Shown here one piece after another: positions 42,981 through 45,330 of a stretch of DNA of 64,000 nucleotides. How positions within the stretch are numbered: the first letter of the stretch is position 1; every line of letters begins with the position of its first letter. The translations under genes and the position numbers were made by a program. Location: NCBI GenBank assembly GCA_900065925.1, contig LN890280.1, positions 922,451-986,450 on the forward strand, given 5' to 3'. Source of the stretch: Nitrosotalea devaniterrae (lineage in GTDB: Archaea > Thermoproteota > Nitrososphaeria > Nitrososphaerales > Nitrosopumilaceae). Under the pieces are notes generated by a model, which saw only the letters and a list, made by a program, of their open reading frames with translations, was not told the origin of the DNA and did not search any database.

Positions 42981-44207
42981 CTAGGTAACTACTTTGAACT
43001 GGACATTTTTCTTTTTCAGGAATCTGATTAGTTGTTCTGCATGGTCCGAGTCCTGAGTCTCAAGACTCAATGTTACTCCAGCAGTGCCTGCAGGTATGCT
43101 TGAGCTTAGCCTATCATGAATCACGTCTACGATATTTACGCTCAATGAGGATATCTGGTCAATTACCTCTTTGAGAGCACCTGGTTTGTCAGTCAAAAGA
43201 ATAAAGATCTTGACCATTCGTCCCATTTCTGTGAGTCCTTTTGCCACAATTTGTCCCAATAGATACATGTCTACGTTTCCACCCGATAAAATTGAGACAA
43301 CCTTTTTGCCCTTGGCAGGTTTTTTGTCAAGCAAGTATGCCAAGCCTACTGCACCTGCCGGCTCGACTACAGTCTTTGATCTTTCCATGAGAAGAAACAT
43401 TGCCTTTACGATAGACGAATCATCAACAAGGACGATATCGTCAATCAGCTCGTTTATGATTTTAAATGTAGAGTGTCCCGGAGTTTTTACAGATATTCCA
43501 TCTGCAATTGTCCTGTGACCTGAAACTGATTGTAACTTGCCAAGATCAAATGATTTTTTCATCGCAGGAAATCCTGATGATTGTACCCCGATTACCTTGA
43601 CCTTTGGTTTTTTTGTCTTGACTGCTTTTAGTATTCCAGCTGCAAGTCCTCCCCCACCTATCGGTACATAAATTTCGTCAACATCTGGCAAATCCTCCAT
43701 TATCTCAAGTCCTATTACTCCTTGTGCAGCAATTACTGTTTCATCATCAAAAGCATGAACCATGGTAGCACCAGTTTTTTGTGCAATGTCTGCAGCTCTT
43801 GCAGAAGATTCATCATAGATTGCACCTTCCAAAATTACATTTGCGCCATATGATCTAGTGGCAGAAACTTTGGCAGGGGATGCAGTGACAGGCATTACAA
43901 TTGTACATGGAATTTTTTCAAGCGATGATGCATATGCTACACCTTGTGCATGGTTTCCCGCAGAAGCTGCAATGACTCCTTTTTTCTTTTCAGCTTTTGA
44001 AAGACTTGCAATCTTTGCATATGCTCCGCGAAACTTGAACGAGCCTGTCTTTTGGAGACATTCAGATTTTAGGTACACCTTGGAACCCGTCATTACACTA
44101 AACGAATGTGAACTTTCAAGAGGGGTTCTCCTGATCACATTGCGCTGGATTTTTTGTGATTTTACGATATCATCAAAAGTGACATTCAACAGAGTTTTCA
44201 GCCCCAT
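42981..44207 (-). CDS. ilvA: Threonine dehydratase (biosynthetic, ACT domain)
   Basis: 408 residues. PLP-lysine motif SFKFRGAYAK, ASAGNHAQGVAYA, the phosphate loop PIGGGGLAAG, and a C-terminal ACT-like domain (about 325-405, starting VKIFILLTDKPGALKEVID). Makes 2-oxobutanoate for isoleucine. The ACT domain suggests feedback control. Upstream lies the structured RNA candidate. Confidence 0.92.
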   Translation of the reverse strand: MGLKTLLNVTFDDIVKSQKIQRNVIRRTPLESSHSFSVMTGSKVYLKSECLQKTGSFKFRGAYAKIASLSKAEKKKGVIAASAGNHAQGVAYASSLEKIPCTIVMPVTASPAKVSATRSYGANVILEGAIYDESSARAADIAQKTGATMVHAFDDETVIAAQGVIGLEIMEDLPDVDEIYVPIGGGGLAAGILKAVKTKKPKVKVIGVQSSGFPAMKKSFDLGKLQSVSGHRTIADGISVKTPGHSTFKIINELIDDIVLVDDSSIVKAMFLLMERSKTVVEPAGAVGLAYLLDKKPAKGKKVVSILSGGNVDMYLLGQIVAKGLTEMGRMVKIFILLTDKPGALKEVIDQISSLSVNIVDVIHDRLSSSIPAGTAGVTLSLETQDSDHAEQLIRFLKKKNVQFKVVT

Positions 44208-44340
44208 CTTGGTATATTTGGTTTATTGAGCCCCGGATGCCCAAAAACTGATGTGTATTATCAATTTTATTGATGGATTTTAAGTAAAAAACATACAATT
44301 GTGTCGTAAATTAACAAAATTTTCGAAGATCAAAAAGGGC

Positions 44341-44347
44341 TAAATAA
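44341..44347 (+). promoter_or_regulatory. TATA box upstream of RNA candidate
   Basis: CTAAATAAT (core 44341-44347) is centred about 26-28 bases before 44372, where the hairpin begins. The same sequence type precedes tRNA-Val and the gene at 9759. Confidence 0.55.
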
Positions 44348-44371
44348 TATTCTGTGAAGATGACAGATCTA

Positions 44372-44450
44372 AGTCAAGGGGTCATGTGGCGTCACATGGT
44401 GTCTACTCCCCAAACTGTGGCACCATGTAATGGTACCTGATCCCTTGACT
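44372..44450 (+). ncRNA. Candidate 79-nt structured RNA
   Basis: A long hairpin with no protein frame. Outer stem AGTCAAGGGGTCA (44372-44384) pairs fully with TGATCCCTTGACT (44438-44450), with one G-U pair. Inner stem ACATGGTG (44394-44401) pairs with CACCATGT (44421-44428), around a loop containing CTACTCCCCAAACTG. The two 9-base sides between the stems can form six more pairs. GC content is well above the surroundings, and a TATA box lies at the right distance. An ACA trinucleotide occurs 8 bases after the stem, but the spacing is not that of an H/ACA guide. Class unknown. Confidence 0.6.
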
Positions 44451-44493
44451 AAATGTAACATGCTTTTCAAAATGCTTTGATATAAACAATTTT

Positions 44494-45330
44494 TTAGTTT
44501 TTTAGAATTTTTATGATACTATCAAGCAGTACGAGCAGATTTGTCTTTGTCTGTGCAGAAATTCTTGTCAGGTTGATGTTTCCTTGACGGGTATTTTTCT
44601 TTAGATATTCCAAATTAAAATTGCAAAGACAGCCTTCTTCTGCTGCGATCATTTTATTTTCATCAATCAATACGGGTGTTGTATGGTATACTTCTATGAG
44701 CATGTTGTCAAGCTCGCCAAACAATCTGTCCCTGTTTGCAACAAGTTTTGTGTGCTCTGCATGTGAAACCTCGATTGACTTTACGATATCTTGAGTGATA
44801 TCTTCACGATTAAACAATACTTCAAACAGTTTCTGTTCATCCATGCCTTGGTAGCCTTCTTTTTGGAGTTTTTCCTGAATTATCTTGTCATTTTCTGGCC
44901 CAACTTGAACCTGAAGTTTTGTAATCATGTCTGAAATGTCAGCGAGTTCTTTTTGGATCTCAATTACACGATGGTCAAGTTTGTAAAACAATAATGCATG
45001 ATACTGTAATGACATGTGTGCAGAAAGCAGATAGTTTCCTTCCTTTATCTCAAATTTTATAAAACTTCTTCGCAGGTCTTTTTCTGCAGTTGCAGTGACT
45101 CCTTGGTTTTCCCATTCAGGGGTCTTTTTTAGAAGGTCATCAAAAAATTGCCTTACTCTAGCAGGGTCAAACGATTCCTGGTCTGTTACAGTTCCATCCC
45201 CAAGCATTACTTTCAGAGGTACCTTATTTGTCAGAGTTGTAATATGTTCCAAGAATAATGACCTGATACTTTCTGCCTTGTCACTCATTGATTTTATGAA
45301 AGGATCTGGATTACTAGTCGGTATCTGCAT
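44494..45330 (-). CDS. Coiled-coil protein of unknown function
   Basis: 278 residues, largely helical. The centre (RVIEIQKELADISDMITKLQ and LVANRDRLFGELDNMLIEVY) is coiled coil; a Cys pair in EEGCLCNFNL and the end TNLLVLLDSIIKILKN follow. No membrane segment. Downstream of the RNA candidate and divergent from a zinc-ribbon gene. No family recognised. Confidence 0.65.
   Translation of the reverse strand: MQIPTSNPDPFIKSMSDKAESIRSLFLEHITTLTNKVPLKVMLGDGTVTDQESFDPARVRQFFDDLLKKTPEWENQGVTATAEKDLRRSFIKFEIKEGNYLLSAHMSLQYHALLFYKLDHRVIEIQKELADISDMITKLQVQVGPENDKIIQEKLQKEGYQGMDEQKLFEVLFNREDITQDIVKSIEVSHAEHTKLVANRDRLFGELDNMLIEVYHTTPVLIDENKMIAAEEGCLCNFNLEYLKKNTRQGNINLTRISAQTKTNLLVLLDSIIKILKN

Follow-up and report, generated by a model that had tools for sequence, protein, structure and literature searches.

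A probable new family of structured RNA genes carrying an exposed C-rich motif in ammonia-oxidising archaea

A hairpin in an intergenic spacer of the Nitrosotalea devaniterrae genome raises the question of whether it belongs to an RNA gene of its own and what such an RNA might do. The window is the whole stretch of DNA analysed, 64,000 nucleotides of contig LN890280.1. The spacer (44208-44493, 286 nt) separates two open reading frames that both lie on the - strand and are transcribed the opposite way, as a sequence-only reading of the locus had described. The first is ilvA (42981..44207), which codes for threonine ammonia-lyase (TIGR01127, 488.8 bits against a cut-off of 378.75) and is divergent from the RNA, and the second is a 278-aa gene (44494..45330), which is convergent with it. 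Both serve here as context only. The 278-aa open reading frame is near-universal in the archaeal family (221 of the 250 genomes), yet it has no match in Pfam or NCBIfam.

The sequence-only reading had proposed a 79-nt hairpin of about 29 base pairs. The hairpin itself stands, with a corrected size: positions 44371-44452 fold into one imperfect hairpin with 31 base pairs in the MFE structure (-46.2 kcal/mol; z -8.24; 0 of 200 shuffles equally stable), and the stem proper occupies 44373-44449. Its GC content of 53%, against 30% upstream and 20% downstream, bears out the description of a GC-rich element in an AT-rich spacer. The 110-nt span covered by that reading folds at -50.1 kcal/mol on the + strand (z -6.57) and at -37.1 on the - strand (z -3.82), and the 110-nt segment with the hairpin ranks first in stability among 3196 overlapping segments from both strands of the window. 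The genome, a single contig of 1.81 Mb, contains one copy (E 2.3e-46), the next match being 14 nt long. Within the structured core (77 nt, 44373..44449, + strand), which rests on folds and on two covariance models described below (R1, 92.0 bits; R2, 80.3 bits), an outer stem P1 (5' strand 44373..44384, 3' strand 44438..44449) surrounds an inner stem P2 (5' strand 44398..44403, 3' strand 44418..44424), and P2 encloses an unpaired C-rich motif, ACTCCCC, at 44405..44411, all on the + strand. A side feature of the window's subclade (44385-44397; L003-L021) is an extension of the 5' arm that pairs with a 3' single strand, AGUUCCAU, and this 3' segment stays unpaired in other Nitrosotalea-type copies.

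We searched for relatives of the hairpin at increasing distance. BLAST against 61 genomes (its own, 36 of the same genus and 24 of the same order) recovered the own copy and 29 others at E<1e-3, all 29 within the own genus. Once put on one strand, all 30 loci had the hairpin and CTCCCC, and 29 of them shared the setting between ilvA and the 278-aa gene, L016 among them, although at a contig end with one flank only. A pattern made from the start and loop found 29 stretches in named contigs, mostly of Candidatus Nitrosotalea or Thaumarchaeota (e.g. N. bavarica SBT1), and had no match in IMG/VR that would point to a viral origin. One pattern match, L084, was dropped because it falls within a bacterial bin, in what is predicted to be coding sequence. 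Covariance model R1 matched 32 of the 37 genus genomes at E<=1, several of them with 2-4 copies, and in an even draw of 300 order genomes its strong matches were confined to the own genus and genus g25. Covariance model R2, built from 43 rows, matched 47 of 250 family genomes at E<=0.1, and 42 of these were accepted: 34 of the 37 in the own genus, five in g25, and G291, G318 and G327 in three further genera. The five weak genomes (E 0.007-0.07) were not accepted. Judged by sequence and fold, the weak covariance-model matches L067-L070, L127, L136, L137, L139 and L140 are chance.

The three distant R2 matches (L124-L126) all lie between ilvA and the 278-aa gene, flanks to which the model is blind. 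Because the 278-aa gene is widespread, we surveyed the spacers beyond its 3' end. Among 59 spacers (19 + 40), 37 contained a clear RNA, one a diverged copy (L230) and one a decayed copy (L186, genome G031), and no RNA was found in the other 20, which comprise 7 of 7 in g24, 4 of 4 in g32, 2 of 2 in g66, 2 of 3 in g23, 3 of 22 in g27, 1 of 2 in g40 and G030 of the own genus. The RNA is therefore dispensable. The decayed copy in G031 (L138/L186) is of the ilvA-linked type I described below and sits at the right locus. Decayed or lost copies at the ilvA spacer (L186, 449-535; L174) were seen in genomes G031 and G416, which shows that some lineages can do without it. A third covariance model, R3, was built from an alignment of the RNAs in the outer genera (A4) and found 82 places in 81 of the 250 family genomes at E<=5.1e-7 (55 in g27, 15 in g22, 4 in g36, 2 each in g26 and g30, and 1 each in g23, g29 and g40); each of the 37 A4 rows was taken from a different one of the same 250 genomes, whose matches are thus by construction. 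Among 400 order genomes, R3 gave nothing convincing outside the family, with two weak matches in f8 (E 0.001-0.006). Together, R2 and R3 cover 122 of the 250 family genomes and 12 of the 22 genera, and because searches over 40 genomes used stricter filters, the absences are upper bounds. The two flanking genes were present at all three distant covariance-model matches and at all 30 R3 loci fetched, and for the most part the RNA has this place, directed away from ilvA. The family thus occurs in at least 12 genera and has paralogs, which goes beyond what the sequence-only reading had proposed.

That reading had named a covariance search of related genomes as a check, and the search brought out strong compensatory changes in both stems. 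We examined four alignments. A1 and A4 are plain MAFFT alignments, the stem of A4 having been assigned by hand from the folds of its rows, and A2 and A3 were fitted to the model structure and lean towards it. A1 yielded a consensus hairpin with double changes in 6 of 17 predicted pairs, and A2 had a covariation score of 0.330, compared with 0.053-0.099 for slid partners. In A3, the Nitrosotalea-type set (58 rows, including the probable chance match L127), 95.5% of cells were paired, double changes occurred in 12 of 16 pairs (7 of 11 in P1 and all 5 modelled pairs in P2), and the covariation score was 0.406 against 0.037-0.101 for slid partners, a value reached in 0 of 500 shuffles. A4, an independent set, holds 37 of the 38 outer RNAs, the diverged spacer copy L230 having been left out. 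It gave a similar result, with 95.4% of cells paired, double changes in 12 of 13 pairs, all of P1, and a score of 0.531 against 0.070-0.184, again with 0 of 500 shuffles as high.

The same alignments indicate which strand is structured. G-U cells outnumbered A-C cells by 82 to 10 in A3 without L127, which had been kept in the covariation count, and by 74 to 3 in A4, both being counts of sequences and not of events. RNA pairing allows G-U but not A-C, and we therefore take the + strand to be the structured strand. This asymmetry makes it less likely that selection has acted on an ilvA leader element or on a DNA cruciform. The motif ACTCCCC is the other constant feature: of 56 distinct sequences, 54-56 agree on the base in each of its seven columns, and the CCCC core is retained in the outer genera. 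In the predicted folds this near-invariant motif is unpaired or nearly so, and a C-rich seed would accordingly appear accessible, as it is in trans-acting C-rich-loop sRNAs. A small-peptide reading of the locus was rejected on stem length, since stems modulo 3 are spread over all classes (23, 14 and 20 of 57 copies) and thus out of frame; among the same 57 copies, L122 included, no long open reading frame was common to the RNA copies.

The helix around the motif takes two forms. In the outer genera, an outer stem encloses an unpaired CUCCCCU on its 5' side followed by a separate hairpin, so that the inner stem follows the motif, whereas in the Nitrosotalea type the inner stem encloses it. The motif is consequently set in an apical loop in the window's type and on the 5' side of an internal loop elsewhere, and it is the best-kept stretch although the surrounding helix was rebuilt. 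R3 matched no Nitrosotalea genome at E<=0.01, and the case for treating the two sets as one family therefore draws on other features: both share the orthologous position, a BRE/TATA promoter, a similar outer stem (of the UCAAGG / CCUUGA type) and an unpaired UCCCC core. Further, G318 and G291 were matched by both R2 and R3 at the same place. L124 has an inner stem around the motif plus CCTCGCCTCA, which resembles that of the outer-genus hairpins, and it looks transitional.

We also found that the promoter travels with the RNA. A BRE and TATA box (AAAGGG CTAAATAAT) lie at 44334..44348 on the + strand. The string AAAGGGCTAAATA at 44334-44346 is the sole match in the window at one mismatch or fewer, where 1.07 are expected by chance; taken alone it is thus within chance, and it is meaningful because it is conserved in relatives. 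The proposed likeness to the tRNA-Val promoter held, as CTAAATAAT also stands 29 nt before the 5' end of tRNA-Val. In all 37 outer-genus loci, a TATA-like box with a purine-rich BRE precedes the stem by 29-33 nt. The TATA-to-stem spacing is 29-34 nt in 51 of the 56 Nitrosotalea-type loci scanned, a count that skips L122; four are outliers (27, 36, 36 and 61), and the scan found no promoter box for L079. Between promoter and stem is a conserved leader, AGATCTAA (44365..44372, + strand), the GATC of which is kept in most rows of A1-A3. GATC also recurs around the promoter and start, at 44328-44331 and 44366-44369 in the window and upstream of L063, L062 and L077, with repeats 6-8 nt apart in many copies; these repeats are perhaps a regulator site.

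Judged by its spacing from the TATA box, transcription would start at about 44367-44372, and it likely ends in a T-run at 44490..44495 on the + strand, which overlaps the end of the convergent gene, for a putative transcript of about 120-130 nt. The 3' tail of this presumed transcript (44450..44478, + strand) is poorly conserved in its first half. After the tail, most copies, including paralogs elsewhere, have a GATATAAACA element (44479..44488 in the window) at a near-fixed distance from the stem, about 33 nt in several genera and paralogs. It reads TTTATATC on the - strand and could serve as a 3' signal for the RNA or as a TATA box of the - strand. T-runs follow most type I copies just past GATATAAACA and are weak in types II and III.

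These types are the paralogs within Nitrosotalea. Copies at ilvA form type I. In type II (L077, L078, L080, L081, L128-L130 and L132-L134), the RNA comes after a gene for 3-dehydroquinate synthase II (Pfam DHQS), beyond which is a gene that its sequence suggests to be methyltransferase-like. Type III copies (L062, L071, L073, L076 and L131) sit by T2SSE-type and/or VirB4-like ATPase genes, with neighbours that also read as pilin-like, and L032 and L079 are in other contexts. Genes of the ATPase and pilin-like kinds were seen together at the type III loci L062/L089, L071/L098, L073/L087, L076/L109 and L101/L131, possibly as a DNA-transfer or pilus system, and G019 has two T2SSE/VirB4-type gene sets, each with its own RNA copy. 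In G030 and G024 a type II copy alone was found. The paralogs keep the same motif beside unrelated genes.

Taken together, covariation, orthology across genera and a promoter conserved in both position and sequence support what the sequence-only reading had suggested, an unannotated structured RNA with its own promoter. On this comparative evidence, we consider it nearly certain that the + strand carries a small non-coding RNA gene of its own at 44334-44495, and the copies very probably represent a genuine, new, clade-wide family of structured RNA genes of ammonia-oxidising archaea, those of the Nitrosopumilus/Nitrosotalea kind. Its ancestral place would be between ilvA and the 278-aa gene, with paralogs arising in Nitrosotalea.

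What might the RNA do? The long hairpin's job may be to display the unpaired C-rich patch, which is ACUCCCC here and at least UCCCC in most of the distant relatives. By analogy with bacterial C-rich-loop sRNAs, the patch could act in trans by pairing with several mRNAs at G-rich stretches, which perhaps lie close to ribosome-binding sites. As a whole explanation, an RNA gene with a patch acting in trans by mRNA base pairing has our preference, at slightly better than even terms; base pairing as the mechanism is the more tentative part, and we would place it somewhat below even. We favour it for two reasons: the C-rich motif is short and exposed, and the siblings retain it among unrelated genes. 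The search did not turn up one conserved antisense target: the 11-nt complement GGGGAGTTGAC had no conserved perfect target in 37 genomes, occurring outside the RNA genes at scattered places only and at none in the own genome. The invariant part is 5-7 nt, a short seed, which counts against the pairing model.

Binding of a protein would suit the motif about equally well. The RNA would then be the scaffold of a small RNP, with the C-rich patch as the binding site of a protein (e.g. of KH, S1 or Sm type), and would work either within that particle or by sponging up the protein. In line with such a scaffold, the constant part is a short unpaired stretch that stays whatever helix surrounds it, and no conserved long complement was found. 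However, no partner protein is encoded beside all copies, and the neighbours differ between types. We regard the scaffold as the chief alternative, though a rather unlikely one. Pairing with mRNAs, our preferred reading, also has a bolder version, in which the RNA is an ancient sRNA and a global post-transcriptional regulator whose C-rich seed resembles the anti-Shine-Dalgarno end of 16S rRNA. This bolder version is improbable. If it were true, translation of many mRNAs would be tuned, the siblings would have expanded in acid-soil Nitrosotalea, and the helix around the seed would have been rebuilt there with the seed kept.

A pure trans model leaves the lasting link with ilvA unexplained. The link could mean that the RNA acts in cis, with divergent transcription or RNA structure tuning ilvA expression. 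It stays beside ilvA across genera, and both ilvA and the dehydroquinate synthase gene of type II are amino-acid biosynthesis genes. However, plain gene-order conservation can explain the synteny because the 278-aa gene stays too, paralogs exist without ilvA, and several genera have ilvA with no RNA found. The structured strand, as the G-U excess indicates, is antisense to the ilvA direction, and the same wobble asymmetry led us to reject an ilvA leader riboswitch on the - strand. Action on ilvA is therefore, in our judgement, quite unlikely. A sense/antisense pair, in which GATATAAACA is the - strand TATA box of convergent transcription and the antisense RNA controls the sense RNA, is more doubtful again. 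In favour of such a pair, many type I copies have the element, as TTTATATC on the - strand, some 33 nt away from the stem, and paralogs elsewhere have it too, but it is missing in some copies (e.g. L028 and L131), it may equally be a 3'-end signal, the convergent gene in g27 ends almost directly at the RNA, and selection is visible on the + strand structure only. Finally, it is hardly credible that the hairpin acts as DNA, whether as a MITE or other mobile inverted repeat, a cruciform, or a site of replication or attachment: the palindrome is strong, if imperfect, and some genomes have 2-4 copies, but the own genome has one, the position is orthologous across genera, the promoter is conserved and the compensatory changes favour G-U far over A-C, unlike DNA pairing. 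Copy number and synteny led us to reject a MITE with short target-site repeats, and when we looked for the many-copy inverted repeat without covariation that the sequence-only reading had considered, we found a single copy in the genome and strong covariation.

Ammonia oxidisers rank with the most abundant archaea on Earth, and the RNA family proposed for them here is compact and alignable, comes with a fixed genomic address, and conserves both its promoter and a candidate binding patch. Existing RNA-seq of cultured strains can already be searched for it, and annotation pipelines could include it. That a single unpaired motif changed from an internal-loop to an apical-loop setting, within covarying helices, makes a natural experiment on what is conserved in an RNA family.

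We compared the element with known RNAs. At gathering score, Rfam 15 found no family in the window except two tRNAs and none at nine Nitrosotalea-type loci; ten outer-genus loci had no match at E<=1, and in a relaxed search of 44300-44520 the best score was 18.8 bits against that family's cut-off of 80. ARAGORN detected only tRNA-Val and tRNA-Phe in the window, confirming that the element is no tRNA, and neither is it the genome's RNase P RNA, which is at C1:625418-625694. The hairpin is archaeal and similar in size to an archaeal H/ACA guide RNA, but it matches no Rfam family and has neither a conserved ACA at its stem base nor a pocket formed by two guide strands. Relatives do not share the ACA found at 44458-44460, the sequence after their stem being variable, and the window fold is without a large internal loop; a standard H/ACA guide can be set aside, as the sequence-only reading had held. 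C/D box sRNAs are also short archaeal RNAs and have little stem of their own, whereas this element has a long covarying stem, and C (RUGAUGA) and D (CUGA) columns, read by eye, are not conserved in A1, A2 and A4. Guiding on rRNA is unlikely because complements of the unpaired parts in the own rRNA operon reach 7-9 nt only, and helix 27 of 16S rRNA was rejected as a target since the own 16S lacks the needed GGGGAGUA.

The kind of RNA proposed, an intergenic regulatory RNA, is known, and the family is new as far as the literature was searched. That search, with most subscription journals outside its scope, returned no paper on Nitrosopumilus or Nitrosotalea small RNAs that is evidently on this RNA and no description of a regulatory RNA of ammonia-oxidising archaea. 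Bacteria have trans-acting C-rich-loop sRNAs of the RsaE type, with a UCCC motif. Like these, the element is a small stand-alone RNA with an unpaired C-rich motif in a hairpin context and with sibling copies; unlike them, it has an archaeal promoter, its ACUCCCC complements a GGAGG-type ribosome-binding site only in part, and the likeness is proposed as a functional analogy. Tan1, an abundant ncRNA of marine group II Euryarchaeota, differs from the element in its length of 229 nt, its phylum and its structure, which is described as complex (PMC5069720), and the two are alike in being unassigned archaeal structured ncRNAs from outside the model organisms.
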